DNA of 64,000 bases from Variovorax sp. OAS795. GTDB taxonomy: Bacteria > Pseudomonadota > Gammaproteobacteria > Burkholderiales > Burkholderiaceae_C. The DNA lies in assembly GCF_040546685.1 (NCBI RefSeq), contig NZ_JBEPOH010000002.1, positions 558,001 to 622,000 on the forward strand, in the 5' to 3' direction. The notes below the pieces were generated by a model. It was not told where the DNA came from and searched no databases. It saw only the letters and a program-made list of their open reading frames with translations. This document shows, piece by piece, positions 2,168 through 28,793 of the stretch (position 1 is the stretch's first letter; every line of letters begins with the position of its first letter). The translations under genes and the position numbers were made by a program.

Positions 2168-3349
2168 ATGACCTCTTCTCCTGAATCCACGGCGCGCGCA
2201 TCCACGGGTGCGCCGCTCGCCGGCGTGCGCGTGCTCGACCTGACCCGCCTGCTGCCCGGACCGCTGGGCACCATGCACCTGGCCGACCTGGGCGCGGACG
2301 TCGTCAAGATCGAAGACACCGGCGCCGGCGACTACGCAAGCCCCTCGGTGCGCGCGCTCGTCAACCGCAACAAGCGCGCGATCCGCATCGACCTGAAGCA
2401 GGCGCAGGGCGTGGCCACGCTGCTTCGCCTGTGCCGCGATGCCGACGTGCTGGTCGAGGGCTTCCGGCCCGGCGTGATGCAGCGCCTGGGCGTGGGCTAT
2501 GACGCGGTGGCGGCGGTGAACCCGCGCATCGTCTATTGCAGCATCAGCGGCTTCGGCCAGACCGGCCCGTTGCGCGACACGCCGGGGCACGACCTGAACT
2601 ACGCCTCGCTCGCGGGCGTGGCCGACCAGATCGGCAATGCCGCGGGCCCGGCCCTGTCGAACCTTCCGGTGGCCGACCTGCTGGGCGGCACCATGACCGC
2701 GGTGGCCGGCATGCTGGCCGCGCTGTTCGATGCCGCGCGAACCGGCCGCGGCCGGCATGTCGACATCGCCATGGCCGACGGCGTGCTGGCCCATGCAGTG
2801 CTGCCGCTGGCCGGCCTGCACCAGCACGGGCAGGTGGCGCGCGTCGGCCACAGCGCGCTCACGGGCGCCCTCGCCTGCTACGGCTACTACCGCACGGCCG
2901 ACGACAGGCAGGTGGCGGTCGGTGCGCTGGAACCCAAGTTCTGGCAGGACCTGTGCCGGCTGCTCGAGCGCCCCGACCTCGCACCGCTGCACCGCAGCGG
3001 CGATGCCGCCACCGAGGAGCGCCTGCGCGACGCGCTGGCCGCCATCTTCCGCGCGCGGCCGCTCGCGCACTGGCGCGACCTGTTCCACGACGGCGTGGGC
3101 TGCGTGACGCCGGTGCTGCGCATCGACGAGACGCTGGAACATCCACATTTCCGCGCGCGCGGCATGCGCGTGGCCACCGACGACGCGGCGCCGCCGCAGC
3201 TCGGCTGCCCCATCAAGATGACCGGCTTCGAGCCCGCCCCGCCGCGCCCTGCCCCTCGCGCCGGCGAGCACACCGACGAGATCCTGCGCCAGGCCGGGCT
3301 CGACGCATCGGCCGTGGCCGGCCTGCGCGCGGCCGGCGCCGTCGATTGA
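2168..3349 (+). CDS. CaiB/BaiF family protein, alpha-methylacyl-CoA racemase-like
   Basis: 393 residues, normal for class III CoA-transferases and racemases. The signature GHDLNYASLAG and the later LPVADLLGGT match the alpha-methylacyl-CoA racemase branch rather than formyl- or carnitine-CoA transferases. The likely acid/base pair is His141 and Asp170, 29 residues apart, close to the spacing of the His/Asp pair known in the mycobacterial racemase. Such enzymes epimerise the 2-methyl branch of an acyl-CoA so that (S)-specific dehydrogenases can act. That fits the dehydrogenase, hydratase and aldolase-like genes downstream. A CoA-transferase role cannot be excluded. Confidence 0.82.
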   Translation: MTSSPESTARASTGAPLAGVRVLDLTRLLPGPLGTMHLADLGADVVKIEDTGAGDYASPSVRALVNRNKRAIRIDLKQAQGVATLLRLCRDADVLVEGFRPGVMQRLGVGYDAVAAVNPRIVYCSISGFGQTGPLRDTPGHDLNYASLAGVADQIGNAAGPALSNLPVADLLGGTMTAVAGMLAALFDAARTGRGRHVDIAMADGVLAHAVLPLAGLHQHGQVARVGHSALTGALACYGYYRTADDRQVAVGALEPKFWQDLCRLLERPDLAPLHRSGDAATEERLRDALAAIFRARPLAHWRDLFHDGVGCVTPVLRIDETLEHPHFRARGMRVATDDAAPPQLGCPIKMTGFEPAPPRPAPRAGEHTDEILRQAGLDASAVAGLRAAGAVD

Positions 3350-6489: not shown

Positions 6490-7455
6490 ATGACGAAGAT
6501 GCATCGCCGCGCGGCCCTGGCCCTGGTGGCCGCCTGCGCGCTGGCCGCGCCGCTGGCGCAGGCCGCCGACCCGTATCCGAGCAAGCCGATCCAGCTCGTG
6601 CTGCCGTTCCCGCCGGGCGGCTCCTTCGACCCGATCTTCCGCACGCTGGCCGAGGCCGCCTCCAGGGAGCTGGGCCAGCCCATCGTGCTGATGCACAGGG
6701 CGGGTGCGGGCGGCGTCACCGGCACCGCATCGCTGGCGGCCATGAACGACGCCGACGGCTACACGATCGCGGTCATGCACAACTCGGTGATCCGCGCGCC
6801 GCTGGTGCAGAAGGTGACCTGGGACCCGCTCAAGGACTTCACCTACCTGATCGGGCTGGCCGGCCTCACCACCGGCATCGTCGTGGCCGCCGACGCGCCC
6901 TGGAAGTCGCTGCCCGATCTGCTGGCCGACGCGAAGAAGCGGCCCGGCGCAGTGAGCTGGGGCAACGTCGGTGCGATCAGCATCAACCGCATCTATGCCG
7001 AGCGGCTCGCCAGGCAGGCCGGCACCTCCTTCAACCTGGTGCCCTACAAGGGCGGCAGCGAGGCCTTCCAGGCGGTGATCGGCCGCCATCTCGACGTCTA
7101 CGGCGATCCCGGCTTCGGACCCCAGGTGCAGGGCGGCAAGGTGCGCCTGCTCGCCACCTTCACGGCGGAGCGGCTCAAGCGCTACGACGCGCCGACCGTG
7201 AAGGAGCTGGGCCACGACATGGTGATCGAGTCGCCGGTGGGCCTGGTGGCGCCGAAGAACCTCGATCCGAAGATCGCCGCCAAGCTGCACGCGGCCTTCG
7301 GCAAGGCCGCGGCCGACCCCGCCTACCTCCAGCAGCTGGAGCTGTTCGACATGCAGCCCAAGCTGATGACCGGCGAGGGCTATGCCGACTACGCGCGTGC
7401 ACAGTTCGAGCGCGAACGGAAGATGCTGGCCGAGATCGGCTTCAAGCCCGAGTGA
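6490..7455 (+). CDS. Bug-type periplasmic solute-binding protein (TTT family)
   Basis: 321 residues. The ATG at 6490 follows a good AGGAG site. A classic signal peptide (residues 1 to about 25, ending AQA) precedes the mature start ADPYPSKPIQLV. The PFPPGGSFD loop is the carboxylate-binding signature of Bug receptors, which catch organic or aromatic acids in the periplasm. No TctA/TctB membrane genes are next to it, so it is an orphan receptor that must share a transporter or act as a sensor. Its place between thioesterase and SDR suggests the ligand is the substrate of cluster A. Confidence 0.9.
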   Translation: MTKMHRRAALALVAACALAAPLAQAADPYPSKPIQLVLPFPPGGSFDPIFRTLAEAASRELGQPIVLMHRAGAGGVTGTASLAAMNDADGYTIAVMHNSVIRAPLVQKVTWDPLKDFTYLIGLAGLTTGIVVAADAPWKSLPDLLADAKKRPGAVSWGNVGAISINRIYAERLARQAGTSFNLVPYKGGSEAFQAVIGRHLDVYGDPGFGPQVQGGKVRLLATFTAERLKRYDAPTVKELGHDMVIESPVGLVAPKNLDPKIAAKLHAAFGKAAADPAYLQQLELFDMQPKLMTGEGYADYARAQFERERKMLAEIGFKPE

Positions 7456-7463
7456 CAGGAGCA

Positions 7464-8291
7464 ATGAACCCCATGGACTTTTCCGCATTCGATTTCAAGG
7501 GCCGCCACGTGGCCGTGGCCGGCGGCTCCAGCGGCATCAACTTCGGCATCGCGCAGGCCTTTGCGCGTGCCGGGGCACGGCTCACGGTGCTGAGCCGCTC
7601 GGCCGACAAGGTGGCCGCGGCCGCGCAGCGCCTCGAGGCACTCGGCACCGAGGCGCTAGGCATCCCGGCCGACGTGCGCCAGCCCGAGGCGCTGGAGCGT
7701 GCCTTCGCAGCGGGCGCCGAACGCTTCGGGCCCATCGACGTGCTGGTCTCGGGCGCCGCGGGCAACTTTCTTGCGAGCGCGCTCGACATGTCGCCCAACG
7801 CCTTCAAGACCGTGGTCGACATCGACCTGCTCGGCAGCTTCAACGTCGCGCGGCTCGCGCACGCGCACCTGCGCAAGCCCGGCGCCTGCGTGATCCAGAT
7901 CTCCGCCGGGCAGGCCTTCACGCCCACGCCGTTCCAGGCCCATGTGTGCGCGGCCAAGGCGGGCGTCGACATGCTGACGCAGGTGCTGGCGCTGGAGTGG
8001 GGTCCGCAGGGCATCCGCATCAACTCCATCGTGCCCGGCCCCATCGCCGACACCGAGGGCCTGAAGCGGCTCGCACCGACCGACGACACCATGGCCGCGA
8101 TGGCCCAGCGCGTGCCGCTCAAGCGGCTGGGCCGCATCGAGGACATCAGCCGCATGGCGATGATGCTCGCGAGCGACTGGGGCTCCTACATCACGGGCGC
8201 GGTCATTCCCGTGGACGGCGGCCTCGCGCTGACCGGGCCGCGCGACTTCACGGCCGCCGCTGCCGCGTCGAAGCGGGGAGCCGCGCCATGA
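7464..8291 (+). CDS. SDR family, 2,4-dienoyl-CoA reductase-like
   Basis: 275 residues from the ATG at 7464; the ATG at 7473 is an alternative with better spacing from AGGAG. The Rossmann motif is GGSSGIN. The usual YxxxK is VCAAK, so the catalytic Tyr is replaced by Val161 while Lys165 stays. The same loss is typical of 2,4-dienoyl-CoA reductases, and the stretches LALEWGPQGIRINS and PGPIADTEGLKRL closely recall the peroxisomal DECR2 branch. It likely uses NADPH to remove a conjugated double bond from an unsaturated acyl-CoA. It overlaps the next gene by ATGA. Confidence 0.8.
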   Translation: MNPMDFSAFDFKGRHVAVAGGSSGINFGIAQAFARAGARLTVLSRSADKVAAAAQRLEALGTEALGIPADVRQPEALERAFAAGAERFGPIDVLVSGAAGNFLASALDMSPNAFKTVVDIDLLGSFNVARLAHAHLRKPGACVIQISAGQAFTPTPFQAHVCAAKAGVDMLTQVLALEWGPQGIRINSIVPGPIADTEGLKRLAPTDDTMAAMAQRVPLKRLGRIEDISRMAMMLASDWGSYITGAVIPVDGGLALTGPRDFTAAAAASKRGAAP

Positions 8292-8722
8292 GCCTGCAGC
8301 TTGCGAGCACGGCGCCCGGAGGCGACGACCGGCCGCGCAGCGGACCGCAGCGCTACGTGCCGTTTTCCGAGCACCTCGGCCTCAGGGTCGAGCGAGCCGA
8401 AGGCGGCGAGTCGCTGGTGTCGGTGGCGCTGCGCCCCGAGCTGCTGAACAACCATGCCGCCGGCCACGGCGGCGTGCTGATGACGCTGCTCGACAGCGCC
8501 ATGGCGCATGCCGCGCTTTCGCGCGTCGCCTATGCGCGCGAGGTCGTCACCGTCGACATGCACATCGCCTTCATGCGGCCTTCGAACGGCGTGCTGCAGG
8601 CCGAGGGACGCGCCACCGGCGGCGGGCGCTCGGTGTGCTTTTGCGAAGCCACGGTCACCGACGCGAGCGGCGAAGTGGCGGCGCGCGCCATGGGCACCTT
8701 CCGCTACCGCGACCCCGCGTGA
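8288..8722 (+). CDS. PaaI-type hotdog thioesterase (second copy)
   Basis: 144 residues. The signature GHGGVLMTLLDSAMAHAA matches PaaI/YdiI thioesterases, as in the gene at 6029, but the two are clearly diverged paralogs. The first 25 residues are a Pro/Gly/Arg-rich extension. The start overlaps the SDR stop. It closes the first transcription unit of cluster A; a 124-base gap with a possible operator follows. The acyl-CoA substrate is unknown. Confidence 0.83.
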   Translation: MSLQLASTAPGGDDRPRSGPQRYVPFSEHLGLRVERAEGGESLVSVALRPELLNNHAAGHGGVLMTLLDSAMAHAALSRVAYAREVVTVDMHIAFMRPSNGVLQAEGRATGGGRSVCFCEATVTDASGEVAARAMGTFRYRDPA

Positions 8723-8846: not shown

Positions 8847-10040
8847 ATGACACGTATGCAACGCCCCGTCCATGTGGTCGGCGTGGGTATGATTCCCTTC
8901 ACCAAGCCCGGCGCCAGCGACCCGTACACCGTGATGGGTGCACGCGCCGCCAGGCTCGCGCTCGACGACGCAGGCGTCGACTATTCGCTGGTGCAGCAGG
9001 CCTATGTCGGCTATGTCTACGGCGACTCCACCGCCGGGCAGGCCGCGATCTACGGCGTCGGCCTCAGCGGCATCCCGGTCTTCAACCTCAACAACAACTG
9101 CTCCACTGGCTCCAGCGCGCTGTTCCTCGCGCGCCAGGCGGTCGAGAGCGGCATGGTCGAATGCGCCATTGCGCTCGGCTTCGAGCAGATGCAGCCCGGC
9201 GCGCTCAAGGGCGCCTACGACGACCGGCCATCGCCGATGGCGCGCTTTGCCGATGTGATGGCCGAGAAGCAGGGCTACGTTCCCGAAGCGCCGCGCGCCG
9301 CGCAGTTCTTCGGCGGCGCCGGCCGCGACTACATCGCGCAGCACGGCATCCGGCGCGACACCTTCGGCCGCATCTCGGTGAAGGCGCGCCAGCACGCCGC
9401 ACGCAACCCGCTCGCGGTGTTCCGCCAGACGCTGACGCTCGACGAAGTCATGGCCTCGCCGGTGGTGTTCGATCCGCTCACGCGCTTTCAATGCTGCCCG
9501 CCAACCTGCGGCGCGGCCGCAGCGATCGTCTGCTCGGCCGAGTTCGCCGAGAAGCACGGCCTCGACAAACGCGTGGTGATTGCCGCCCAGGCCATGACCA
9601 CCGACACGCCCTCCACCTTCGAGAGCAAGGACATGCGCAAGCTGGTCGGCTACGACATGACCGTCGCCGCAGCCCGGCAGGTGTACGAGGACGCCGGCAT
9701 CGGGCCCGAGGAGCTCGACGTGGTCGAGCTGCACGACTGCTTCACCGCCAACGAACTCATCACCTACGAGGCGCTGGGCCTCACGCCCGAAGGCACGGCC
9801 GAACGCTTCATCGTCGAGGGCGACAACACCTACGGCGGGCGCGTGGTGACCAACCCGTCGGGCGGCCTGTTGTCCAAGGGCCATCCGCTCGGCGCGACCG
9901 GCCTCGCGCAATGCGCGGAGCTGGTGTGGCAGCTGCGCGGCCGCGCGGAGCAGCGTCAGGTCGAAGGCGCACGCCTCGCGCTGCAGCACAACCTGGGCCT
10001 CGGCGGCGCCTGCGTCGTCACGCTGTACCAAGCGGTTTGA
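8847..10040 (+). CDS. SCP2/SCPx-type thiolase (lipid-transfer-type acetyl-CoA acyltransferase)
   Basis: 397 residues. The ATG at 8847 has AGGAG six bases upstream. All active-site residues of SCP2-type thiolases are present: Cys85 in NNCSTGSSAL, His296 in ELHDCF and His346 in GHPLGATG. It should cleave a 3-oxoacyl-CoA with CoA, and this branch tolerates methyl-branched or bulky substrates. It begins the long operon of cluster A and is followed after one base by the first MaoC-type gene. Compare the paralog at 15836, which has lost these residues. Confidence 0.92.
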   Translation: MTRMQRPVHVVGVGMIPFTKPGASDPYTVMGARAARLALDDAGVDYSLVQQAYVGYVYGDSTAGQAAIYGVGLSGIPVFNLNNNCSTGSSALFLARQAVESGMVECAIALGFEQMQPGALKGAYDDRPSPMARFADVMAEKQGYVPEAPRAAQFFGGAGRDYIAQHGIRRDTFGRISVKARQHAARNPLAVFRQTLTLDEVMASPVVFDPLTRFQCCPPTCGAAAAIVCSAEFAEKHGLDKRVVIAAQAMTTDTPSTFESKDMRKLVGYDMTVAAARQVYEDAGIGPEELDVVELHDCFTANELITYEALGLTPEGTAERFIVEGDNTYGGRVVTNPSGGLLSKGHPLGATGLAQCAELVWQLRGRAEQRQVEGARLALQHNLGLGGACVVTLYQAV

Positions 10041-10041
10041 G

Positions 10042-10485
10042 ATGATCGACCGCCGCCACATCGGCCACGACCTTCCGCCCTTCCAGGTGGTTGTGGAGAA
10101 AGGCCGCCTTCGCTTCTTCGCCAAGGCCACGGGGCAGACCGATCCCGTCTACACCGACGAAGCCGCGGCAGGCGATGCGGGGCACCCGGGCCTGCCGGTA
10201 CCACCCACCTTCTTCTTCTGCCTGGAGATGGAAGCGCCGAACCCCGCGGCCATCCGCGAGCTGCTGGGCATGGACTACCGCAGCCTGCTGCACGGCGAAC
10301 AGGGGTTCAGCTACCACGCCATGGCCTATGCCGGCGACACGCTGACCTTCCGCCAGCGCATCGAGGACATCTACGACAAGAAGAACGGCGCGCTCGAATT
10401 CGTCGTGCGCAAGACACGCGTCAGCAACCAGCGTGATGAACTCGTGGCCGAATTGCGCTGCATCACGGCGGTGCGAAACCAATGA
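10042..10485 (+). CDS. MaoC-like N-terminal hotdog (FAS1-type dehydratase partner)
   Basis: 147 residues forming one hotdog domain. The N-terminal part (FFAKATGQTDPVYTD) aligns with the MaoC_dehydrat_N group, which usually lacks the catalytic Asp/His pair and serves as the substrate-holding partner. The active partner is the overlapping gene at 10482. Such heteromeric hydratases (for example ChsH1-ChsH2 in steroid side-chain breakdown) accept bulky CoA esters. The pairing is inferred from the overlap and the missing catalytic histidine. Confidence 0.82.
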   Translation: MIDRRHIGHDLPPFQVVVEKGRLRFFAKATGQTDPVYTDEAAAGDAGHPGLPVPPTFFFCLEMEAPNPAAIRELLGMDYRSLLHGEQGFSYHAMAYAGDTLTFRQRIEDIYDKKNGALEFVVRKTRVSNQRDELVAELRCITAVRNQ

Positions 10486-10931
10486 ACGACCGGAGCACGA
10501 CGATGACCACCGCCAAACTCCCCGACTGGCGCGCGCTGCAGCCTGGCGATGCCCTGCCTCCGCTCGTGTTGCCGCCGATCAGCCGGCTCGACCTGGCGCT
10601 GTACTGCGGCGCCTCGGGCGACCACAACCCGATCCACGTCGACATCGACTTCGCCAGGTCCGCCGGCATGCCCGATGTGTTTGCGCACGGCATGCTCTCG
10701 GCGGCCTGGCTCGCGCGGCTGTTGACCTGCTGGGTGCCGCAGACGGCGATCCGTTCGCTCGACGTGCGCTTTGCCGCGCTCACCCTGGTGGGCGAGCGCA
10801 TCCGCTGCACCGGCACGGTCGACGAGAAGTTCGAGCACGAAGGCCGCCGCAGCGTGCGCCTGAAGATCGCGACCGCCAACGCCGACGGCGCCATCAAGCT
10901 GAGTGGCGAAGCCCTCGTCGCCTGGCCCTGA
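10482..10931 (+). CDS. MaoC-like enoyl-CoA hydratase, catalytic subunit
   Basis: 149 residues. The hydratase-2 motif is complete: YCGASGDHNPIHVD with the catalytic Asp and His, followed by the HGML segment. It adds water to a trans-2-enoyl-CoA. The ATG at 10482 overlaps the previous stop (ATGA); a second ATG at 10503 is possible. It most likely forms a heterodimer with the product of 10042 and supplies the 3-hydroxyacyl-CoA used by the aldolase-like pair or the SDR further down the operon. Confidence 0.87.
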   Translation: MNDRSTTMTTAKLPDWRALQPGDALPPLVLPPISRLDLALYCGASGDHNPIHVDIDFARSAGMPDVFAHGMLSAAWLARLLTCWVPQTAIRSLDVRFAALTLVGERIRCTGTVDEKFEHEGRRSVRLKIATANADGAIKLSGEALVAWP

Positions 10932-10953
10932 CACATCCCCGAGGAGACACCCC

Positions 10954-11796
10954 ATGAACAGCAGCAGCAACAACAGAAAACTCGAAGGCAAGGTCGCCAT
11001 CGTCTCCGGCTCCGGCCGCGGCATCGGGCGCGAGATCGCGCTCAAGCTGGCGAGCGACGGCGCGCGCGTGGTCATCAACGACCTGGACGCCGAACCGGCC
11101 GCGCAGACCGTCAACGACATCGTGGCCGCGGGCGGCAGCGCCATCGCCTGTGCCGGCAGCGTGACCGACAACGGCTTTGCCGACCGCTTCGTGGGCACCG
11201 CCGTCGAAAGCTACGGCGGCCTGGACATCATCGTCAACAACGCCGGCTACACCTGGGACAACGTGGTGCAGAAGATGAGCGACGAGCAGTGGGAAGCCAT
11301 GCTCGCGGTGCACCTCACTGCGCCCTTCCGCATCCTGCGTGCCGCGTCCGGCTTCATCCGGGATGCCGCGCGGCGCGAAGCCGACGAAGGGATCGAGGTG
11401 TTCCGCAAGGTGGTCAACATCTCGTCCACCTCCGGCGTGTACGGCAACGCGGGCCAGGCCAACTACGCGGCCGCCAAGGCCGGCATCAACGGCCTGACCA
11501 AGGCCATGGCCAAGGAATGGGGCCGCTACAAGGTCACGGTCAACAGCGTGGCCTTCGGCCTCATCAAGACCCGGCTGACCGAGGCCGATGCCAGCGCGGG
11601 CGCGAGCATCGACATCGAGGGCCGGCAGATCAAGGTCGGCGTCAACCCGCAGATCCTCAAGAACGCCGAAGCCATGATCCCGCTCGGCCGCGGCGGCACG
11701 CCGCAGGAAGCGGCCGGCGCGGTCTACATGTTCTGCATTCCCGAATCGAACTACGTGAGCGGCCAGGTGCTGGTCTGCGGAGGCGGGCGGCCATGA
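10954..11796 (+). CDS. SDR oxidoreductase, FabG-like (3-hydroxyacyl-CoA dehydrogenase type)
   Basis: 280 residues from the ATG at 10954, which follows GAGGAGAC. The Rossmann motif is SGSGRGIG, the NNAG motif is present, and the active site is complete, with a serine in NISST and Tyr/Lys in YAAAK. It probably oxidises a 3-hydroxyacyl-CoA to the 3-oxo form with NAD+ before thiolysis. A longer loop around residues 130-150 recalls the SDR part of peroxisomal multifunctional enzymes. The stop overlaps the acyl-CoA dehydrogenase start. Confidence 0.87.
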   Translation: MNSSSNNRKLEGKVAIVSGSGRGIGREIALKLASDGARVVINDLDAEPAAQTVNDIVAAGGSAIACAGSVTDNGFADRFVGTAVESYGGLDIIVNNAGYTWDNVVQKMSDEQWEAMLAVHLTAPFRILRAASGFIRDAARREADEGIEVFRKVVNISSTSGVYGNAGQANYAAAKAGINGLTKAMAKEWGRYKVTVNSVAFGLIKTRLTEADASAGASIDIEGRQIKVGVNPQILKNAEAMIPLGRGGTPQEAAGAVYMFCIPESNYVSGQVLVCGGGRP

Positions 11797-12959
11797 CCGG
11801 CGGGGCCGTTGCCACGCGGCCGTGGATGAACGAGGAACTCGAGATGCTGCGTGACAGCGCGCGGCGCTTCTTCGAGCGCGAATGCGTGCCCCATGAACCG
11901 CGCTGGCGCGCGCAGCACCACGCCGACCGCGGCATCTGGACCCAGGCCGGCCAGGCCGGCCTGCTGTGCGCCAGCATCCCCGAGGCATACGGCGGCGGCG
12001 GCGGCAGCTTCCTGCACGAGGCGGTGATCTGCGAGGAGCAGATGCGCGCGATGGCACAGGGCTTCAGCAACAACGTGCACAGCGGCATCGTCGCGCACTA
12101 CCTGCTGGCCTACGGCACCGAGGCGCAGAAGCTGCGCTGGCTGCCGCGCATGGCCAGCGGCGAGCTGGTGGCCGCCATCGCCATGACCGAGCCCGGCGCC
12201 GGCACCGACCTGCAGCGCATCAAGACGCAGGCGCGGCGCGATGGCGAGCACTGGCGCATCAGCGGCAGCAAGACCTTCATCACCAACGGCATGCATGCCG
12301 GCCTGGTCTGCGTCGCGGCCAAGACCGATGCGGCGGCGGGTGGCAAGGGCATCTCGCTGCTGATGGTCGAGACCGAGGGCACGGCGGGTTTCCGCCGCGG
12401 GCCTCTCCTGGACAAGATGGGCCAGAAGACGCTGGACACCACCGAGCTGTTCTTCGAAGACGTGCGCGTGCCGGCCGACAACCTGCTGGGCGGCCAGGAG
12501 GGCGCCGGCTTCGCGCAGCTCATGGCGCAGCTGCCGCGCGAGCGCATGCTGATCGCCGTCGGCGCGGTGGCGACCATGCAGCGCGCCATCGCGGACACGC
12601 TCGACTACGTGCGCGAACGCCAGGTGTTCGGGCAGCCGCTCCTGAAGATGCAGAACACCCGCTTCAAGCTGGCCGAGTGCGAGACGCAGGCGCAGGTGGC
12701 GCGCGCCTTCGTGGACGACTGCATCGCCCGCCTGATGCGCGGCGAGCTCGACGTGCCCACCGCAGCCATGGCCAAGTGGTGGACCACCGACACCTGCTGC
12801 CGCATCGTCGACGAATGCCTGCAGCTGCACGGCGGCTACGGCTTCATGAACGAATACCCGATCGCGCGGCTGTATGCCGACGTGCGGGTCGGCCGCATCT
12901 ACGGCGGCGCCAACGAGGTGATGAAAGAGATCATCGCCCGCGCGCTCGAAAAACAATGA
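11793..12959 (+). CDS. acyl-CoA dehydrogenase, long-chain/isovaleryl type by active site
   Basis: 388 residues, the normal length. FAD- and substrate-binding motifs are clear: AMTEPGAGTDL, ITNG, LHGGYGFMNEYP and GRIYGGANEVMKEI. The C-terminal site where medium-chain enzymes carry the catalytic Glu (YEGT) reads YGGA here. A glutamate at Glu250 in LPRERMLIAV matches the alternative base position of long-chain and isovaleryl-CoA dehydrogenases. It therefore should be active and accept long or branched acyl-CoA. The start overlaps the SDR stop and the end overlaps the next ligase. Confidence 0.9.
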   Translation: MTGGAVATRPWMNEELEMLRDSARRFFERECVPHEPRWRAQHHADRGIWTQAGQAGLLCASIPEAYGGGGGSFLHEAVICEEQMRAMAQGFSNNVHSGIVAHYLLAYGTEAQKLRWLPRMASGELVAAIAMTEPGAGTDLQRIKTQARRDGEHWRISGSKTFITNGMHAGLVCVAAKTDAAAGGKGISLLMVETEGTAGFRRGPLLDKMGQKTLDTTELFFEDVRVPADNLLGGQEGAGFAQLMAQLPRERMLIAVGAVATMQRAIADTLDYVRERQVFGQPLLKMQNTRFKLAECETQAQVARAFVDDCIARLMRGELDVPTAAMAKWWTTDTCCRIVDECLQLHGGYGFMNEYPIARLYADVRVGRIYGGANEVMKEIIARALEKQ

Positions 12960-14650
12960 GCGCCACAGCCGGTCAGCCGCCGCACTTCCGCTTCTGGCCC
13001 AAGGGCGTGGCACGCCATCTGCGCGTGCCACGCGCCAGGCTGCCCGACTACCTGGACACCGCCGCCAGGCGCTATCCCGACAAGCCGGCCATCGCCTACT
13101 GCGGCACCACCCTTGCCTACGCGCGGCTGCGCGAGCGCGTCGATGCCCTGGCTGCCTACCTGCAGCAGCGCCTGGGCGTGGCGCCGGGCGACCGCGTGCT
13201 GCTCGCGAGCCAGAACTGCCCGCAGTTCGTCACGGCCTTCTATGCCGTGCTGCGCGCCGGCGGCGTGGTGGTGCCGGTCAACCCCATGAGCAAGGCCGCG
13301 GAGGTGCGCCACCATGCGCTCGACAGCGGCGCGCGCGTGGCCTGCGTCGCGCAGGACCTGCTGGCCGCGCTCACCCTTGGTGAAGGCGACGGCGAGCTGC
13401 GCGCCGTGCTCGTGCATGCCTACGCCGATGCGGTCGATGCGAGTGTGGGCGACGACGTCTTGCCCGAGTGGGTCACGGCGCCGCGCGCGCCGCTCGACGA
13501 TGCGCGGCTGCATGGCTTCGAACAGGCGATCGCGCCCGGCCTCGTGCCCGCCGATCTGCCGCTGTCGCCCGACGATCTCGCGGTGCTGCCCTACACCTCG
13601 GGCACCACAGGCCATCCCAAGGGTTGCATGCACACGCATGCCACGCTGCTGGCTTCGCTCGCATCCTCGGCGGTGTGGAAGCAGCTGCACGTGGAGACCG
13701 TGACGCTCGCCGTCGCGCCGCTCTTCCACATGCTGGGCCTGCAGAACGGCATGAACCTGCCGATGTTCCTCGGGGCCACGGCAGTGATGATGCCGCGCTG
13801 GGACCCGGCCATGGCCGCGCGCCTGATCGAGCGCCATGCGGTCACGGCCTGGTCGGCACCACCGGCGATGGTGATCGACCTGTTCTCCCACCCTGAAGCA
13901 GACCAGCGCGACCTCTCCAGCCTCGCGCTTCTGTCGGGCGGTGGCGCCGCGATGCCCGAAGCCGTGGCCGCGATGCTCCAGCAACGCCATGGCCTTTCGT
14001 ACAACGAAGGCTACGGGTTGACCGAGACCGCCTCGTTCCTGCATGCGAACCCGCCCGCGCGCGGCAAGCGCCAGTGCCTGGGCATGCCCACGCAGGGTGT
14101 CGATTCGCGCATCGTCGATCCGGTCACGTTCGAGGAACTACCACCCGGAGAAACCGGCGAGCTGGTCACGCGCGGCGCGCAGGTCATGAAAGGCTACTGG
14201 CGCAACCCCGAGGCCGACCGCGAGGCCTTCATCGAGATCGGCGGCCAGCGCTTCTTCCGCACCGGCGACCTGGCCTCGATGGACGAGGAAGGCTACTTCT
14301 TCCTGCGCGACCGTCTCAAGCGAATGATCAACGCCTCGGGCTACAAGGTGTGGCCCACCGAGGTCGAGAACGCGATGTACGAGCATCCGGCCATCCACGA
14401 GGCCTGCGTGATCGCGGTGCCCGACGGCAAACGCGGCGAGTCGGTCAAGGCGCTGGTGGTGCTCAAGCCCGCACAGCGCGGCCTTGTCGGCGAGGAAGAG
14501 ATCGTCGCATGGTGCCGCGAACGCATGGCCGTCTACAAGGCGCCGCGCGTGGTCGAGTTTCTCGACCGCCTCCCGAAGTCCGGCACCGGAAAGATTCTTT
14601 GGCGCGAGCTGCAGGAAGCCCATCGCGCCGCCGCCCAGGAGCCCACTTGA
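12956..14650 (+). CDS. long-chain-type acyl-CoA ligase (AMP-binding)
   Basis: 564 residues. Adenylation motifs are intact: the P-loop LPYTSGTTGHPKG, NEGYGLTETA, RTGDLASMDEEGY, the hinge RLKRMINASGYKVWP and the C-terminal lysine in KSGTGKILW. It is the second CoA ligase of cluster A and differs from the one at 4527, so the pathway may activate two acids, for instance the parent compound and a shortened product. It is translationally coupled to both neighbours. Confidence 0.92.
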   Translation: MSATAGQPPHFRFWPKGVARHLRVPRARLPDYLDTAARRYPDKPAIAYCGTTLAYARLRERVDALAAYLQQRLGVAPGDRVLLASQNCPQFVTAFYAVLRAGGVVVPVNPMSKAAEVRHHALDSGARVACVAQDLLAALTLGEGDGELRAVLVHAYADAVDASVGDDVLPEWVTAPRAPLDDARLHGFEQAIAPGLVPADLPLSPDDLAVLPYTSGTTGHPKGCMHTHATLLASLASSAVWKQLHVETVTLAVAPLFHMLGLQNGMNLPMFLGATAVMMPRWDPAMAARLIERHAVTAWSAPPAMVIDLFSHPEADQRDLSSLALLSGGGAAMPEAVAAMLQQRHGLSYNEGYGLTETASFLHANPPARGKRQCLGMPTQGVDSRIVDPVTFEELPPGETGELVTRGAQVMKGYWRNPEADREAFIEIGGQRFFRTGDLASMDEEGYFFLRDRLKRMINASGYKVWPTEVENAMYEHPAIHEACVIAVPDGKRGESVKALVVLKPAQRGLVGEEEIVAWCRERMAVYKAPRVVEFLDRLPKSGTGKILWRELQEAHRAAAQEPT

Positions 14651-15453
14651 CGAACGATTTCACCGCACTGCGCTACGAGCGCCACGGCAGCACCGCGCTG
14701 CTGACGCTCGACACGCCCGCCAATCGCAACGCCTTCACCCCCGTCATGCGCGACGACCTCGCACGGGCCATTGCACAGGTGAGCGCCGACACCGAGGTGC
14801 GCGCCCTGGTGCTCACCGGCGCTGGCGGCCAGTTCTGCTCGGGCGGCGACCTGCGCGGCATTGCCGATGCGAAGCTCGACAACGCCGGCTGGCGCGGCCG
14901 CATGCAGGCCACGCAACGCTGGTTCAGCGAACTGGTCCTGCTCGACAAGCCCGTGATCGCCGCGGTCGATGGTGCGGCCTATGGCGCGGGCTTCAGCCTG
15001 GCGCTCGCGGCCGACTTCGTGCTGGCGAGCCCGCGTGCGCGCTTCTGCATGTCCTTTCTGAAGCTGGGCCTGGTGCCGGACTGCGGCGCCTTCTACACGC
15101 TGCCGCGCGTGGTGGGCGCGCAGCGCGCACGCGAGCTGATGCTGTCGGCACGCGAGGTTGGCGCCGCCGAGGCGCGCGAACTCGGCATCGCCATGGAACT
15201 GCATGCGCCCGAGCAGCTGCTGCCGCGCGCATTGGCGCTGGCCGAAAGCTTTGCCGGCGCCTCGCCGCTCGCGGTGAGCCTGGTCAAGCGCGCAACCGGC
15301 GATGCGGGCGCGCTGGCCGCGCTGCTCGACACCGAGGCGAACGTGCAGGCGCTGGCCTTCGGCAGCGCCGAGCACCGCGACGCCGTGCACCGCTTTCTCG
15401 ACAAGAAGCCGCTGGCCTTCCAATGGCCCGCGAACAAGGAACCGAACCCATGA
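14647..15453 (+). CDS. enoyl-CoA hydratase/isomerase family, PaaG-like isomerase
   Basis: 268 residues from a TTG at 14647; AGGAG ends five bases before it and the TTG overlaps the ligase stop, which decides the start. The crotonase fold is clear (oxyanion loops SGGDLRG and GAAYGAGFSLA). The two hydratase glutamates are absent (FSLALAAD and FCMSFLKLG). Asp145 in LVPDCG matches the single catalytic acid of PaaG-type isomerases. It likely shifts a double bond in an unsaturated or ring acyl-CoA instead of adding water. Hydration would fall to the MaoC pair. Confidence 0.82.
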   Translation: MTNDFTALRYERHGSTALLTLDTPANRNAFTPVMRDDLARAIAQVSADTEVRALVLTGAGGQFCSGGDLRGIADAKLDNAGWRGRMQATQRWFSELVLLDKPVIAAVDGAAYGAGFSLALAADFVLASPRARFCMSFLKLGLVPDCGAFYTLPRVVGAQRARELMLSAREVGAAEARELGIAMELHAPEQLLPRALALAESFAGASPLAVSLVKRATGDAGALAALLDTEANVQALAFGSAEHRDAVHRFLDKKPLAFQWPANKEPNP

Positions 15454-15839
15454 CCGAGAACACCACCGGCGTACAGGCCTTCCATCAAGGCGAGCTGGAC
15501 GCCGGCCGCTTCCTGCTCCAGCGCTGCGGCGACTGCAGCCGCCATGTCTATTACCCGCGCGAGAACTGCCCGCACTGCGGCGGCGCGGCGCTCGAATGGA
15601 AGACACCCGGCGGGCTCGGCACCGTGCATGCGGTGACGACCGTGCGGCGCAAGCCGTCCGACGGCGGCGACCTCAACGTCAGCCTGGTCGAGCTCGACGA
15701 GGGCGTGCGGCTCATGAGCCGCATCGAGAACCTCGCGCCCGGCGCCGTGCGCATCGGCCAGCGCGTGAAGGCGCGGGTGCAGGTGAAGGATGGCCGCGGG
15801 CTGGTGCTGTTCGATGCGATCGAAGGAGTAGCGGCATGA
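15450..15839 (+). CDS. DUF35 OB-fold protein with zinc ribbon, thiolase/aldolase partner
   Basis: 129 residues. The N-terminal rubredoxin-like ribbon has four cysteines (CGDCSRHVYYPRENCPHCGG), followed by an OB-fold with the GTVHAVTTVRR strand. DUF35 proteins bind next to thiolase-fold partners and help to place acyl-CoA; known pairs are ChsH2-Ltp2 (aldolase) and BbsA-BbsB (thiolase). The gene overlaps the isomerase gene upstream and the thiolase-fold gene downstream, which marks the latter as its partner. Confidence 0.88.
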   Translation: MTENTTGVQAFHQGELDAGRFLLQRCGDCSRHVYYPRENCPHCGGAALEWKTPGGLGTVHAVTTVRRKPSDGGDLNVSLVELDEGVRLMSRIENLAPGAVRIGQRVKARVQVKDGRGLVLFDAIEGVAA

Positions 15840-17014
15840 GCGCTGGACTCAAGGCATTGCGCGGCAGCGCCGCGATCGCAGGCGCCGCCACCTTCGGCTG
15901 CGGCGAGATGCCGGGCTTCACCGACATGGAACTGCTCGCACGCGCCGCGCGCGCGGCCGTGGCCGATGCGGGCTTGCAGATGCGCGACATCGACGGCCTC
16001 TGCACCGCGAGCGCCTCGGCCGCGATGTGGGCCTTGCCGGTGGTCGAATACCTGGGCCTCAATCCGCGCTACATCGACGGCACCATGCTGGGCGGCAGCA
16101 GCTTCATCGCGCACCTGCTGCCTGCGATGCAGGCCATCCGTTCGGGCCAGTGCAGCGCGGTGCTCATCTGCTACGGCAGCGCGCAGCGCAGCGCCGCCTT
16201 CGGCCGGCGCGAGATCGTGGCGGCACGGCGCTTTCTCGACCCGCAGCCTTACGAGCATCCCTACGAGCCGATGCTGCCCGTTTCGGCCTACGCGCTGGCG
16301 GCATCGCGCCACATACACGAGTTCGGCACCACGCGCGAGCAGCTCGCCGACGTGGCGGTGGCGGCACGTGCCTGGGCCGGGCTCAACCCGGAGGCCTTCA
16401 TGCGCGAGCCGCTCACGCGCGAAGAAGTACTAGGCGCGCGCATGGTGTCCGATCCGCTCGGCGTGCGCGATTGCTGCCTGGTCACCGATGGCGCGGGCGC
16501 CTGCGTGCTGGTGAGCGCCGAACGCGCCAGGGACCTGCCGAAAAAGCCGGTCTATGTGCTGGGCAACGCCACGGCGGTGTGGAACCGGCAGATCTCATCG
16601 ATGGCGGACCTCACCACCACCGCAGCCAGCCAGTCGGGCCGCGAGGCCTTTGCCATGGCCGGCCTCGCGCCCAAGGACATGGACGTGGTGCAGCTGTACG
16701 ACGCCTTCACCATCAACACGCTGCTGTTCCTCGAAGACCTGGGCTTCTGCCCCAAGGGCGAGGGCGGCCGCTTCGTGGCCGAGGGCGCCATTGCGCCGGG
16801 CGGAAGGCTCGCGGTCAACACCAACGGCGGCGGGCTCTCGTGCGTGCACCCCGGCATGTACGGCATCTTTGCGCTGATCGAAGCGGTGCGCCAGCTGCGC
16901 GGCGACTGCGGCGAGCGCCAGGTGAAGAACGCGCGCACCGCGGTCGCGCATGGCAACGGCGGCATGTTGTCGAGCCAGGCCACCGCCGTGCTGGGCACCG
17001 CGGAGGCCCTGTGA
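15836..17014 (+). CDS. thiolase-fold protein without catalytic Cys, Ltp2-like putative retro-aldolase
   Basis: 392 residues, a full-length SCP2-thiolase fold. The nucleophilic Cys is replaced (MLGGSSFIAHLL, Met84), and the HDxF histidine becomes Tyr288 in QLYDAF. The second histidine region reads VHPGMYG, with Tyr342. Two tyrosines with almost the same spacing were reported as catalytic in the steroid side-chain aldolase Ltp2, which acts with a DUF35 protein. Here the DUF35 partner gene overlaps directly upstream. The simplest reading is a retro-aldolase that releases a short acyl-CoA from a 3-hydroxyacyl-CoA. An inactive thiolase paralog is the alternative. Confidence 0.8.
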   Translation: MSAGLKALRGSAAIAGAATFGCGEMPGFTDMELLARAARAAVADAGLQMRDIDGLCTASASAAMWALPVVEYLGLNPRYIDGTMLGGSSFIAHLLPAMQAIRSGQCSAVLICYGSAQRSAAFGRREIVAARRFLDPQPYEHPYEPMLPVSAYALAASRHIHEFGTTREQLADVAVAARAWAGLNPEAFMREPLTREEVLGARMVSDPLGVRDCCLVTDGAGACVLVSAERARDLPKKPVYVLGNATAVWNRQISSMADLTTTAASQSGREAFAMAGLAPKDMDVVQLYDAFTINTLLFLEDLGFCPKGEGGRFVAEGAIAPGGRLAVNTNGGGLSCVHPGMYGIFALIEAVRQLRGDCGERQVKNARTAVAHGNGGMLSSQATAVLGTAEAL

Positions 17015-17080: not shown

Positions 17081-18055
17081 GTGAAGACATCGAAGATGCG
17101 AAGACTCTGCCTGGCCGCCGGCCTGGCTGCGCTGCTGGCCGCGCCGGCACTGGCGCAAACGCCCTACCCGGCGCAGCCGATCAAGCTGATCGTGCCCTAC
17201 CCCGCCGGCGGCGCCACCGACACGCTCGCGCGCACCATCGGCCAGAAGCTGCAGGAAGCCTGGGGGCAGACCGCGATGGTGGAGAACCGGCCCGGCGCGG
17301 GCGGCACCATCGGCAACAGCGTCGTTGCCAAGGCGGCGCCGGACGGCTACACGGTGCTGATTGCCATCACCGCGCTGATCCAGCAGCCGACGCTCATGGA
17401 AAAGCTGCCCTACGACCCGCTGAAGGACCTCGCACCGGTCACGATGATCGCGCGCAGCCCCAGCATGCTGGCCGTGCCGCTCGACTCACCGGCCAAGGAC
17501 CTGAAGAGCTTCATCGCGCTGGTCAAGGCCAGCCCGGGCAAGTACAACTTCGGCAGCTACGGCGCGGGCACCTCCTCGCACATCCAGGGGGCGCTGCTCA
17601 ACATGCAGGCCGGCATCGACCTGGTGCACGTGCCGTTCCAGGGCGCCGCGCCGCTCGTGACCAACCTGGTGGGCGGCCAGCTCGCCTCGGCCTTCATCGA
17701 CAGCGCGACCGCGCGGCCGCACCTCAAGTCGATGCGGCCGCTGGCCGTGACCGGCACGCAGCGCATGCCCGGCCTGCCCGACGTGCCCACCTTTGCCGAA
17801 CTGGGCTACCACTCGTTCGATCCGTATGGCTGGTTCGGCGTGTTCCTGCCGGCCGCCACGCCGGCCCCCGTGGTGCAGAAGCTCTCGGACGAGATCAACC
17901 GCATCGTGCACCTGCCGGAGGTCAGCGCCAAGATCGAGGCGCTGGGCCTGCAGGTGGCGGGCGGCAAGCCCGAAGAGTTCCAGAAGGTGGTGCGCGGGGA
18001 TGCCGCCATCTACGCAAAGATCATCAAGGACGCCAACATCCGCGTGGCGCAGTGA
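17081..18055 (+). CDS. Bug-type periplasmic solute-binding protein (TTT family)
   Basis: 324 residues from a GTG at 17081, ten bases after a strong GAGGAG. A signal peptide (about residues 1-25, ending LAQ) precedes TPYPAQPIKLIVPYPAGGATD, the Bug receptor signature. It closes cluster A and is followed by a GC-rich hairpin. As with the receptor at 6490, no membrane subunits are nearby. The ligand is presumably the carboxylate activated by the cluster's CoA ligases. Confidence 0.9.
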   Translation: MKTSKMRRLCLAAGLAALLAAPALAQTPYPAQPIKLIVPYPAGGATDTLARTIGQKLQEAWGQTAMVENRPGAGGTIGNSVVAKAAPDGYTVLIAITALIQQPTLMEKLPYDPLKDLAPVTMIARSPSMLAVPLDSPAKDLKSFIALVKASPGKYNFGSYGAGTSSHIQGALLNMQAGIDLVHVPFQGAAPLVTNLVGGQLASAFIDSATARPHLKSMRPLAVTGTQRMPGLPDVPTFAELGYHSFDPYGWFGVFLPAATPAPVVQKLSDEINRIVHLPEVSAKIEALGLQVAGGKPEEFQKVVRGDAAIYAKIIKDANIRVAQ

Positions 18056-23994: not shown

Positions 23995-25212
23995 TCAGGC
24001 CTGCGGCGACTTTCCAAACCAGCCACGGATACGACTCCAGAGCACGCTCCACATCATCCCGGCGACGGAAACCGTGGGTTGTGGTTCGCTGGAAGCACCC
24101 GTATGCCCGCCCAGCCTTCGCGTGATCTGCTTTCCAAAGTCCGCGACCATGCGGCGCACGAAATCCTTCACGAGCCCGGAGCGCGAGAATTGAGCGAGCG
24201 GACCCTGAAGGGCATAGATCATGTCCACGTGGACACGGGTGCTGCCGGCCGACAGTGCTTCCAGGCGATAGATGATGTCTCCCTGGGTGCGCGATTTGCT
24301 CAGGCTGTCCTGGCCGGCACCACGCAGCACTGCGCGCCTGGCAACGTCGTCACGCTCCAGCCGCGCTGCACCGGCGAAGGCCGCCGACATCGGACCGAAC
24401 TTGATCGCGATGGTGCCCTTGACCCTCTCCCCTTCGTGCGAGTCGATGGTTGCACCGGGCAAGCAGGAGGCAACCGCAGGCAGGTCGCCCATGAACTCCC
24501 ACACCTGATCCGCCGGATAGGGCACATCGAAATGCACTTCGATCGCGTTGCCCTTGGCCTTGGCCTTGGCCATCGCGACGGGATCGACCTCCGCCATTTC
24601 CGCGGAAGCCACCGGATCCGCCGCTGGCGGCTTGGCGGGGGATCGGGCGGGCAGCTGCGCCTGATTCGGTGACGTGAGCCGGTCCACTGCAATGGTCCGC
24701 GGCAAGCTCAGTGCCTTTCGCAGGTTTTCGACTTGCGTGTCGGGGGTGTCACGCTGCTGTTGCAGCACATCCAGGATGGCGTCCACGATGCCCTGGTATC
24801 CGGTGCAACGGCACAGGTTCCCGGACAGCTCGAGGCGCACGCGCGCCTCGTCGGCATGGGGCACGCGGAGCACGATGTCACGCGCCGTGGTGAGCATTCC
24901 GGGTGTGCAAAAGCCGCACTGCAATGCATGGTGACGCGTGAACGCCGGGCGCAGCCTCTGCATCACTGCATCATCGTCGTAGCCCTCGATGGTGGTGACC
25001 TCCTGGCCCTCGCACGCCACGGCAAAAGTGATGCATGAGCGTGTCGGTTGCCCGTTGACGAGCACCGTGCAGGCGCCGCAGACGCCATGCTCGCAGCCAA
25101 GGTGGGTTCCTGTGAGGCGCAGTTCGTCCCGCAGGAAGTCGCCGAGATGCATCCGCGGCTCGGCGCGCCGGCTGTAGCCGCGGCCATTGACCTGAATAGA
25201 GATGGAGTCCAA
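23995..25212 (-). CDS. molybdenum hydroxylase small subunit, [2Fe-2S] protein fused to a CoxG domain
   Basis: 405 residues, far longer than the usual 150-170. Residues 1 to about 165 are the xanthine-dehydrogenase-type iron-sulfur subunit, with the plant-type cluster (CEHGVCGACT) and the second cluster (CGFCTPGM, CRCTGY). A linker (about 165-225) leads to a CoxG/SRPBCC domain (about 225-370, DQVWEFMGDLPAVASCLPG), then a tail with a hydrophobic segment near the end (VAGMMWSVLWSRIRGWF). CoxG proteins anchor or help assemble CO dehydrogenase at the membrane. It follows the FAD subunit by six bases. Confidence 0.9.
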   Translation of the reverse strand: MDSISIQVNGRGYSRRAEPRMHLGDFLRDELRLTGTHLGCEHGVCGACTVLVNGQPTRSCITFAVACEGQEVTTIEGYDDDAVMQRLRPAFTRHHALQCGFCTPGMLTTARDIVLRVPHADEARVRLELSGNLCRCTGYQGIVDAILDVLQQQRDTPDTQVENLRKALSLPRTIAVDRLTSPNQAQLPARSPAKPPAADPVASAEMAEVDPVAMAKAKAKGNAIEVHFDVPYPADQVWEFMGDLPAVASCLPGATIDSHEGERVKGTIAIKFGPMSAAFAGAARLERDDVARRAVLRGAGQDSLSKSRTQGDIIYRLEALSAGSTRVHVDMIYALQGPLAQFSRSGLVKDFVRRMVADFGKQITRRLGGHTGASSEPQPTVSVAGMMWSVLWSRIRGWFGKSPQA

Positions 25213-25218
25213 GTCTGC

Positions 25219-26070
25219 TTACTCCGCAATCTTGAGGTTGGAAAAAACGTCGGATTGCTCGAGTGCGCGCTCGACGCAGGCCGTGAAGAGCTTCCGGTCG
25301 ATGGCATCGCGATCAGGGAGAGCGGCGCTGACGGCCGCGTGGACCTTTTCACGCTCTGCAGCCTGCGCACCCTTGCTGGCAACTTCCACTGCGAATTCAT
25401 TCAACAGGATCGGTGGGCCGTCCGTGGCCCCCAGAACGACGCGTGCACGCTTGCGCGAGACATCGAAATAAGCTGCGGCACTGGCCTCGGCAAATTCGCC
25501 AGGCTTGCGGCAGACCTTGTGATACCCCCAGCGCGTCGTGGGCGTCTCGGATGGCACAAGAATGGCCACGATCAACTCGTCAGCCTCGAGCACCGTCGTA
25601 TAGGCGCCGAGCATGAGGCCGTCCGCCTCGATCGTGCGTTCTCCACGCGGCGACCTGACCACGATGCGCGCACAAAGTGCAGCGAGCGTCACGACCCAGT
25701 CCGCTGCAGGATCTGCATGCGCCAAGCTACCTCCGACGGTGCCGCGGCTGCGGATCGCCCGGTAAGCGATCCCTCCTGCGACCTGACGCATGGGATGCGC
25801 CGCCAGCGGCGGGTACACGCCATCCTCGATCTCGGCATGCGTGACGGCTGCGCCGATCTCGACCCACTCGTCCTTGCGACTGACCGCGCGCAGCGCTGCA
25901 ATATTGGCGACGTCGACCACTTGAGCCGGTCGCGCCAGTCTCAAGTTGAGCATCGGACCGAAGGATTGACTTCCACTCATCGCCTTTGCCGTGCCGCCGC
26001 CGTTGGCCAGCAACTCGATCGCCTCATCCACGTCGAAGGCCCGCGTGTATGCAAATTTCGCAGCCTTCAT
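25219..26070 (-). CDS. molybdenum hydroxylase medium subunit, FAD-binding (CoxM-like)
   Basis: 283 residues, the normal size. The FAD motifs are GGGTAKAMSGSQSF near residue 25-40 and AIRSRGTVGGSLAHADPAAD near 100-120. It passes electrons from the iron-sulfur centres to an acceptor during ring hydroxylation of the pyridine acid. Its start overlaps the end of the large subunit gene (ATGA) and the small subunit gene follows closely, so the three form one complex. Confidence 0.92.
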   Translation of the reverse strand: MKAAKFAYTRAFDVDEAIELLANGGGTAKAMSGSQSFGPMLNLRLARPAQVVDVANIAALRAVSRKDEWVEIGAAVTHAEIEDGVYPPLAAHPMRQVAGGIAYRAIRSRGTVGGSLAHADPAADWVVTLAALCARIVVRSPRGERTIEADGLMLGAYTTVLEADELIVAILVPSETPTTRWGYHKVCRKPGEFAEASAAAYFDVSRKRARVVLGATDGPPILLNEFAVEVASKGAQAAEREKVHAAVSAALPDRDAIDRKLFTACVERALEQSDVFSNLKIAE

Positions 26071-28448: not shown

Positions 28449-28564
28449 GCGTTTCCTTTTCCTTGACTGATTTTCCCGGGCGCGCCGCACGGCATGCGTG
28501 GCACGGAGGCACTGTGTCGGCGATTCAGCGCCAGCCGCTCCGTTTCATGACTTCCGTTCTATTT

Positions 28565-28577
28565 TATGACAGTACAC
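28565..28577 (+). promoter_or_regulatory. operator-like repeat, hydroxylase side
   Basis: TATGACAGTACAC matches the copy at 28781 in 12 of 13 bases and has the same orientation. It lies just downstream of the predicted minus-strand -10 box, over the expected transcription start, a position suited to a repressor such as the MarR protein. Confidence 0.5.
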
Positions 28578-28584
28578 GTGCAGA

Positions 28585-28613
28585 AGTATAGACGTGATGA
28601 TCCGGCCTGTGAA
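28585..28613 (-). promoter_or_regulatory. predicted sigma-70 promoter of the minus-strand operon
   Basis: On the minus strand TTCACA (28613-28608) and TATACT (28590-28585) are 17 bases apart, each one or two bases off consensus. Transcription would start near 28578, leaving a leader of about 130 bases before the large hydroxylase subunit. Confidence 0.5.
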
Positions 28614-28754
28614 GCAAGCGGTTCTCGATGAAAACCCTGACACATTGACTTCACTCATTCGGTGCGTTTGCCAGTGGCTACGCACCCTTTTCACCCGTCG
28701 GCCAGGTGCAACCTCATCCACTCTGGTGCAGCCCCACCAAGTACAAACCCGTAC

Positions 28755-28783
28755 TTGAAAAGACGATCTGATCCGCCTAATAT
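28755..28783 (+). promoter_or_regulatory. predicted sigma-70 promoter of the plus-strand operon
   Basis: TTGAAA (28755-28760) and TAATAT (28778-28783) have the ideal 17-base spacer. The start would be near 28790, about 44 bases before the ferredoxin gene. The operator-like repeat at 28781-28793 overlaps the -10 box. Confidence 0.6.
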
Positions 28784-28793
28784 GACAGTTCAC
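28781..28793 (+). promoter_or_regulatory. operator-like repeat, Rieske side
   Basis: TATGACAGTTCAC repeats the sequence at 28565 with one change. It overlaps the -10 box of the plus promoter and continues into CAGT-N2-ACTG, a small palindrome. Binding here would block RNA polymerase. Confidence 0.5.

Follow-up and report, generated by a model that had tools for sequence, protein, structure and literature searches.

Two pairs of a thiolase-fold protein without catalytic cysteine and a DUF35 partner are proven aldolases: TcLtp2-ChsH2, which cleaves the steroid C3 side chain (6ok1), and CtSal-CtShy, which cleaves the bile acid C5 side chain (9myr). Catalytic roles are ascribed to Tyr294 and Tyr344 of TcLtp2 and to Tyr302 and Cys304 of CtSal, whose C304A, C304S and C304H variants are inactive (PMC12329534), and both Sal and Ltp2 have been published from Comamonas testosteroni (PMC12329534, PMC12502768). 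Here we describe a related pair from Variovorax sp. OAS795, encoded in a stretch of 64,000 nucleotides (contig NZ_JBEPOH010000002.1, positions 558,001 to 622,000; hereafter the window) of a 6.09-Mb genome assembled in two contigs. The pair lies in an operon, cluster A, and consists of a DUF35 protein (15450) and a cysteine-less thiolase-fold protein (15836), genes being named by their first position in the window. Judged from sequence comparisons, the pair is probably a retro-aldolase that belongs to the thiolase superfamily, depends on DUF35 and has a third type of active site.

The 15836 open reading frame (ORF) encodes 392 amino acids and has its best named protein matches in Variovorax paradoxus (96 percent; 98 percent in locus L042). 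Met84, Tyr288 and Tyr342 stand exactly where an earlier sequence-only reading of this DNA had placed them, together with Ala290 and with His338, which that reading had not named. In an alignment with four Cys-containing thiolases of the same genome (L009-L012), Met84 falls in the column of the nucleophilic cysteine, Tyr288 in that of the His of HDCF, Ala290 in that of the Cys of the same motif, and His338 in that of the GHP His, so that His338 counts as a residue kept from the thiolases. Measured against a degradative thiolase, the protein lacks the nucleophilic Cys and the HDCF His and keeps the second His. The column of His338 holds Tyr344 in TcLtp2 and Gln352 in CtSal, and Gly333 aligns with Gln347 of CtSal (alignment to 9myr). 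The sequence-only reading had placed Tyr288 and Tyr342 near the two histidine sites and had called for an alignment with Ltp2 and SCP2 thiolases; this bore out Met84 in the Cys column and Tyr288 in place of the first His, but the second His remains in place, and Tyr342 follows it at a distance of four residues, about one helical turn as far as sequence can tell. Tyr342 was rejected as the equivalent of Ltp2 Tyr344 because His338 aligns there and because a YDSF sister group has Arg at 342. A cysteine conserved elsewhere, which the same reading had held would speak against it, was sought in the alignments, and a nucleophile moved to another position was rejected. Cys214 (95/95 core sequences, defined below) and Cys305 (15/15 sequences) are invariant but look structural, since Ltp2 and Cys-containing thiolases share the DCC/QCC stretch and Sal and Ltp2 share the GFC stretch; Cys213 and Cys336 were discarded as nucleophiles because they are not invariant (84/95 and 89/95 core sequences).

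These residues set the protein apart from its described relatives. TcLtp2 shares with it the thiolase fold without catalytic Cys, the Tyr base position and the DUF35 partner, but reads YDHF with Tyr344 where 15836 has YDAF with His338. CtSal likewise has the Tyr base, DUF35 and no Cys at the thiolase position, but reads YDCY, with Cys304 where 15836 has Ala290; 15836 lies in a separate clade from both. Its closest solved chain is 4u4e, a 'Thiolase' for which no function is given and on which a single literature search found no paper; this protein shares HPGMYG and the lack of Cys at column 84, but has YDSF instead of YDAF. The benzoylsuccinyl-CoA thiolase BbsAB (7pxp) also combines DUF35 with an SCP2-like thiolase, but it keeps the nucleophilic Cys and HDAF and falls on the opposite side of a branch supported at 100/100. 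By score (684.9 bits, cut-off 421) 15836 is a member of the NCBIfam family PRK06158 (NF004811), named 'acetyl-CoA acetyltransferase', a name that implies a thiolase reaction which the sequence does not support.

Conservation was assessed in a core set of 95 sequences, comprising 80 pattern-selected loci from named genomes and 15 found with a hidden Markov model (HMM). Tyr288, Asp289, Ala290, Phe291, His338, Pro339, Gly340, Met341 and Tyr342 are identical in all 95, and none has Cys at column 84. As HPGMYG was part of one search pattern out of two, the constancy of His338-Tyr342 in the 80 named loci alone was rejected as strong evidence, and relatives found with the PRK06158 HMM were therefore also used: the 15 loci from 299 Pseudomonadota genomes (one further match over the cut-off is not included), to which 300 Burkholderiales genomes added 27 (30 of the 53 listed matches as loci, three of them already among the 15). 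YDAF, His338 and Tyr342 are present in all 42 of these relatives, each scoring 525 bits or more; the 42nd, L146, reads YDAFS, and 26 were picked with YD.FT, which required Tyr288, Asp289 and Phe291 and left Ala290, His338 and Tyr342 free. Comparison with five Variovorax orthologues gave ratios of nonsynonymous to synonymous substitution (Ka/Ks) of 0.04-0.12, indicating purifying selection. Because of these ratios and the same residues in 42/42 HMM-found relatives, the active-site pattern is not due to chance. His338 is also kept in two related groups, one with YDAF and HSGMY (8 loci) and one with YDSF and Arg at 342 (7 loci), so that the constant partner of Tyr288 across related groups is His338, not Tyr342.

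We placed the protein in two IQ-TREE trees of 55 and 54 rows, rooted by assumption with Cys-containing HDxF thiolases. The Cys-less proteins (YDxF/Y, with one row YENF) split from the Cys-containing HDxF thiolases at 100/100. Within the Cys-less branch, one group (100/98 and 100/97) unites the YDAF, YDAFA and YDSF proteins with 4u4e, CtSal and a 93-percent relative form their own, and TcLtp2 with three YDHF relatives forms an Ltp2 group (100/98) without 15836. With the HDxF outgroup, Sal and Ltp2 fall outside the YD[AS]F group. Retro-aldol chemistry would be the simplest ancestral state, because both proven aldolases sit outside the YD[AS]F group yet inside the Cys-less branch. The group nearest to YD[AS]F consists of YDCF/HPGLGG proteins (L173, L174, L175, L177, L179 and L181), which combine a Sal-type Cys with the thiolase His and some of which reach the PRK06158 cut-off. 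Two further Cys-less proteins of the Variovorax genome itself (L007 and L008; G000:C1:2339423 and G000:C1:1855345) read YDDF/YDDY, have Gln in the His338 column, lie near a DUF35 match and group with Sal; they may be a further active-site type, and are among the long branches of which the tree program warned.

The DUF35 partner is nearly constant. As the sequence-only reading had stated, the four-cysteine protein 15450 (CxxC...CxxC) is encoded upstream in an overlapping ORF; its zinc ribbon (PF12172, 43.8 bits) and OB fold (PF01796, 54.2 bits) score over the Pfam cut-offs, and its solved relatives include 9myr_B, the partner of CtSal, 6htj_A, and 6ok1_B (ChsH2). Its zinc finger is C4, as against C3H1 in the Sal partner, and it is a free protein, whereas its Comamonas counterpart ORF40 joins DUF35 to MaoC (PMC12502768). 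DUF35 lies upstream of the YDAF gene in 78 of the 80 named-genome loci, and the two loci without it (L069, L114) start directly at a contig end or no more than 53 bases from one. DUF35 and the thiolase-fold domain are fused in 12 of the 80 (Limnohabitans, Curvibacter, Comamonadaceae), where a Pro/Ala-rich linker joins them in one open frame; L074 of Curvibacter lanceolatus is one such natural fusion. Among the 15 HMM-found Pseudomonadota loci, 13 carry DUF35 in the same orientation no more than 1.5 kb away, L022 has it on the opposite strand and L025 has none; in all 27 of the 27 further HMM-found loci it shares the strand and lies within 1.5 kb. The pair appears to move as a unit, since the rest of the neighbourhood changes while the DUF35 partner stays. 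The zinc motif was matched in 76 of the 78 loci, L050 being cut by a contig end; in L065 (Variovorax sp. UMC13, about 9600-10001) DUF35 is without the zinc-ribbon cysteines, and the adjoining YDAF gene keeps its motifs.

Gene neighbourhoods were counted in those 51 of the 80 named-genome loci that are flanked on either side by about 10 kb of sequence, against a background of 20 windows from the Variovorax genome alone, at a regular spacing set by hand. An acyl-CoA dehydrogenase gene occurs near the pair in 45/51 loci (1/20 in the background) and in 19 of 20 loci hand-picked one per genus, one of them from an alphaproteobacterium. Genes for a Bug receptor (47 loci; background 4), ligase (41; 1), short-chain dehydrogenase/reductase (SDR; 38; 1), hydratase (36; 2), CaiB-family protein (24; 2) and Cys-thiolase (23; 0) are found as well. 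Dehydrogenase, hydratase, SDR and Cys-thiolase occur together in 23 of the 51 loci, and three have none of the four. The neighbourhood supports a role in the catabolism of CoA thioesters after an acyl-CoA dehydrogenase and does not prove an aldol step. A layout like that of cluster A was found in 27/80 loci by an identity criterion, some loci being truncated, and other loci carry CaiB, PrpD-like, HpcH or amidase genes. The orthologous cluster is present in V. paradoxus (L042 and L086). In L058 (835-19885), the YDAF pair lies beside ligases, CaiB, HpcH/HpaI, citrate-synthase-like genes and a PrpD-family gene, a set that suggests a substrate different from that of cluster A. PRK06158 scores over its cut-off in 14/299 Pseudomonadota, 32/300 Burkholderiales and 38/100 same-genus genomes, although for G577, G599 and G644, which are among these 38, the top match scores no more than 423-427 bits and may belong to the YDCF type; a two-pattern peptide scan found at least 585 loci encoding a relative. 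The YDAF family is an accessory catabolic trait.

In the proposed reaction, DUF35 would help to form the substrate pocket and Tyr288 would deprotonate a 3-hydroxyacyl-CoA at its beta-hydroxyl, whereupon the bond between C-alpha and C-beta would break to give a ketone or aldehyde and an acyl-CoA enolate. The enolate would be protonated by His338, which occupies the acid column of Ltp2 Tyr344, perhaps with Tyr342. Several observations weigh against a retro-aldolase. Ala290 removes both the acid of Sal (Cys304) and the oxyanion-hole His of Ltp2; because the CtSal Cys304 variants are inactive, the acid of 15836 must be another residue, and our choice of it is a guess. DUF35 is also the partner of the true thiolase BbsAB (PMC12329534) and is therefore not diagnostic of an aldolase. 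The branching order of Sal, Ltp2 and YD[AS]F is modestly supported (83/66 and 94/81). An aldehyde dehydrogenase gene is rare near the pair (7/51 loci; background 1/20; 0/20 one-per-genus loci), and in 11 of the 51 loci an acyl-CoA dehydrogenase gene was found and no hydratase gene detected, eight of these being also without SDR or Cys-thiolase. Finally, PRK06158 is not uniform: a match over the cut-off (G307:C22, 421.1 bits; L174) and one just under it (G449:C223, 420.7 bits; L173) both read YDCF and HPGLGG, and the constant residues therefore define the YDAF lineage, not the whole family.

One rival is another Cys-free reaction on a CoA thioester, whether malonyl-type decarboxylation, hydrolytic retro-Claisen cleavage or acyl transfer, which we consider unlikely but deserving of weight. 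The protein keeps the GHP His of true thiolases, unlike CtSal and TcLtp2, its contexts vary and include CaiB, PrpD-like and CoA-transferase genes, and slow malonyl-CoA decarboxylation has been reported for a Trypanosoma brucei thiolase-like protein (PMC12329534); CtSal, however, does not decarboxylate malonyl-CoA (PMC12329534), and in the groups compared the HDxF His has given way to Tyr, just as in both proven aldolases. With the nucleophile gone and an intact thiolase (8847) in the same operon, 15836 might instead be a non-catalytic CoA-thioester binder or scaffold, with 8847 as the thiolase that does the catalysis. We give this little credence, as Tyr288, Asp289, His338 and Tyr342 are constant over deep divergence, Ka/Ks is low, and 28/51 loci showed no Cys-thiolase over a distance of about 10 kb.

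The sequence-only reading had likened cluster A to steroid side-chain removal by ChsH2-Ltp2. What stands of the likeness is the lost Cys, the Tyr base position, the near-constant DUF35, the CoA-catabolic operon and a place in the tree beside the two proven aldolases; what does not is the detail, with YDAF in place of YDHF and His338 in the column of Tyr344. That 15836 is a true Ltp2 or Sal member and cluster A degrades a steroid side chain is very improbable, even though the protein belongs to the same Cys-less branch and has a DUF35 partner. Its motifs are unlike those of Sal and Ltp2 and it falls outside both clades; its own genome has no CtSal match at E<=1e-60 among the 7 of 18 candidates scored and no TcLtp2 match at E<=1e-70 among the 5 of 19 scored, while the same-family genome G082 has both. 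Both ligases score 257.9 and 308.3 against a steroid-24-oyl-CoA synthetase cut-off of 750, and cluster A has one acyl-CoA dehydrogenase gene and no pair of the ChsE1/ChsE2 type. The occurrence of Sal and Ltp2 in Comamonas (PMC12329534, PMC12502768), which favours the steroid assignment, also means that a betaproteobacterial setting, to which the sequence-only reading had pointed, was already known.

Cluster A comprises ten plus-strand genes between 8847 and 18055, with intergenic gaps of -4 to +66 nt and a 4-nt overlap at six of the nine junctions, in the order SCP2-type thiolase, FAS1-dehydratase/MaoC-like protein, MaoC, SDR, acyl-CoA dehydrogenase, AMP ligase, crotonase, DUF35, Cys-less thiolase-fold protein and TctC/Bug receptor. 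On its 5' side lie genes for a second ligase, two 4HBT thioesterases, a Bug receptor, an SDR, an AraC regulator and a CaiB-family protein (Table 1).

Table 1. Genes of cluster A and selected genes on its 5' side, in window coordinates
Feature	Position	Strand	Match or basis
CaiB-family protein, racemase-like, keeps GHDLNY His and ADLLGG Asp	2168..3349	+	AMACR/MCR chains rank above transferases
TctC/Bug solute receptor	6490..7455	+	PF03401
SDR	7464..8291	+	PF13561
4HBT (PaaI-like) thioesterase	8288..8722	+	PF03061
Intact SCP2-type thiolase (Cys, HDCF, GHP)	8847..10040	+	6hsj SCP2-thiolase type-1 E 6.7e-142; NF006102
FAS1-dehydratase/MaoC-like partner	10042..10485	+	PF13452, PF22622
MaoC-type hydratase	10482..10931	+	PF01575
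SDR, likely 3-hydroxyacyl-CoA dehydrogenase (reaction inferred)	10954..11796	+	PF00106
Acyl-CoA dehydrogenase, LCAD-like, LCAD-position Glu	11793..12959	+	2pg0 E 5.5e-105; human LCAD 8w0t E 6.3e-104
AMP-forming acyl-CoA ligase	12956..14650	+	NF006181 815.7 bits, cut-off 705
Enoyl-CoA hydratase/isomerase, TTG start	14647..15453	+	PF00378 on 14650-15450
DUF35 partner (ChsH2-type zinc ribbon, OB fold), overlaps the following gene by 4 nt	15450..15839	+	PF12172, PF01796
Cys-less thiolase-fold protein, YDAF type, putative retro-aldolase subunit	15836..17014	+	NCBIfam PRK06158 (NF004811)
TctC/Bug solute receptor, 3' of DUF35/Cys-less pair	17081..18055	+	PF03401

The enzymes that the sequence-only reading had listed around the pair are all there, namely the MaoC pair, the acyl-CoA dehydrogenase, the Cys-containing thiolase and, within the same setting, the two Bug receptors and the racemase-like protein. 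Dehydrogenase 11793, to which a branched-chain-type site had been ascribed, aligns with human LCAD: it reads ERMLIA at the Glu site (LCAD has ERLLIA, the mutant entry 8w0z a Q there), a Glu that we take to be mechanistically meaningful, and IYGGANE where LCAD has IYGGTNE. The best solved relatives of the CaiB-family protein are alpha-methylacyl-CoA racemases, and its GHDLNY and ADLLGG stretches, which presumably hold the catalytic His and Asp of such a racemase, align with the corresponding MCR stretches. Substrate for the retro-aldolase would be supplied by the ligase, the acyl-CoA dehydrogenase and then the MaoC pair or the crotonase. Rounds leading through a 3-ketoacyl-CoA would fall to the intact SCP2 thiolase. 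Because of the racemase-like CaiB protein, the LCAD-like dehydrogenase with its Glu and the type-1 SCP2-thiolase, the gene set fits a route for methyl-branched acids, and we infer a branched or isoprenoid substrate from gene content. Peroxisomal branched-chain oxidation offers a parallel to this gene set.

It is conceivable, though we hold the full proposal to be doubtful, that YD[AS]F proteins form a third mechanistic class using Tyr288/His338, as against Tyr/Tyr in Ltp2 and Tyr/Cys in Sal, and that cluster A cleaves methyl-branch 3-hydroxyacyl-CoAs of isoprenoid-type acids to a ketone and acetyl- or propionyl-CoA. Bacteria would then be able to pass a beta-branch with neither carboxylation nor alpha-oxidation, by an enzyme that stands next to a peroxisome-like set (racemase, LCAD-like dehydrogenase, MaoC/SDR, SCP2 thiolase). 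Among the papers listed in the literature searched, those on a DUF35 aldolase concern steroids, and none on such an aldolase for non-steroid acids was found there. The YDAF and YDSF motifs are absent from the Sal paper (PMC12329534), the sole thiolase-superfamily paper found by a motif search, and passages of a proteomics study of Alcanivorax borkumensis on pristane contain nothing on the YDAF family. Two things are new, a third type of active site and the breadth of its lineage; within the literature searched, we found no description of this active-site type. The lineage carries the name acetyl-CoA acetyltransferase in NCBIfam despite the missing thiolase nucleophile, and should its members prove to be aldolases, a large number of catabolic operons would be misread as ordinary beta-oxidation, and DUF35-dependent aldolase chemistry would reach beyond steroids to non-steroid acids, with an alternative catalytic pair.

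Elsewhere in the window, a minus-strand cluster B (44027-49321) encodes a CaiB-family protein, a crotonase, a Bug-like receptor (assigned by eye), an SDR, a BbsB-like thiolase that keeps its Cys and HDAF (7pxp E 4e-78) and a DUF35 match at 48977-49150. We take this set to resemble the bbs genes of anaerobic toluene breakdown. Positions 23995-32253 hold a xanthine-dehydrogenase-like large subunit, [2Fe-2S] proteins and an adjoining ring-hydroxylating-dioxygenase-like pair, as recognized by eye in the ORF list.

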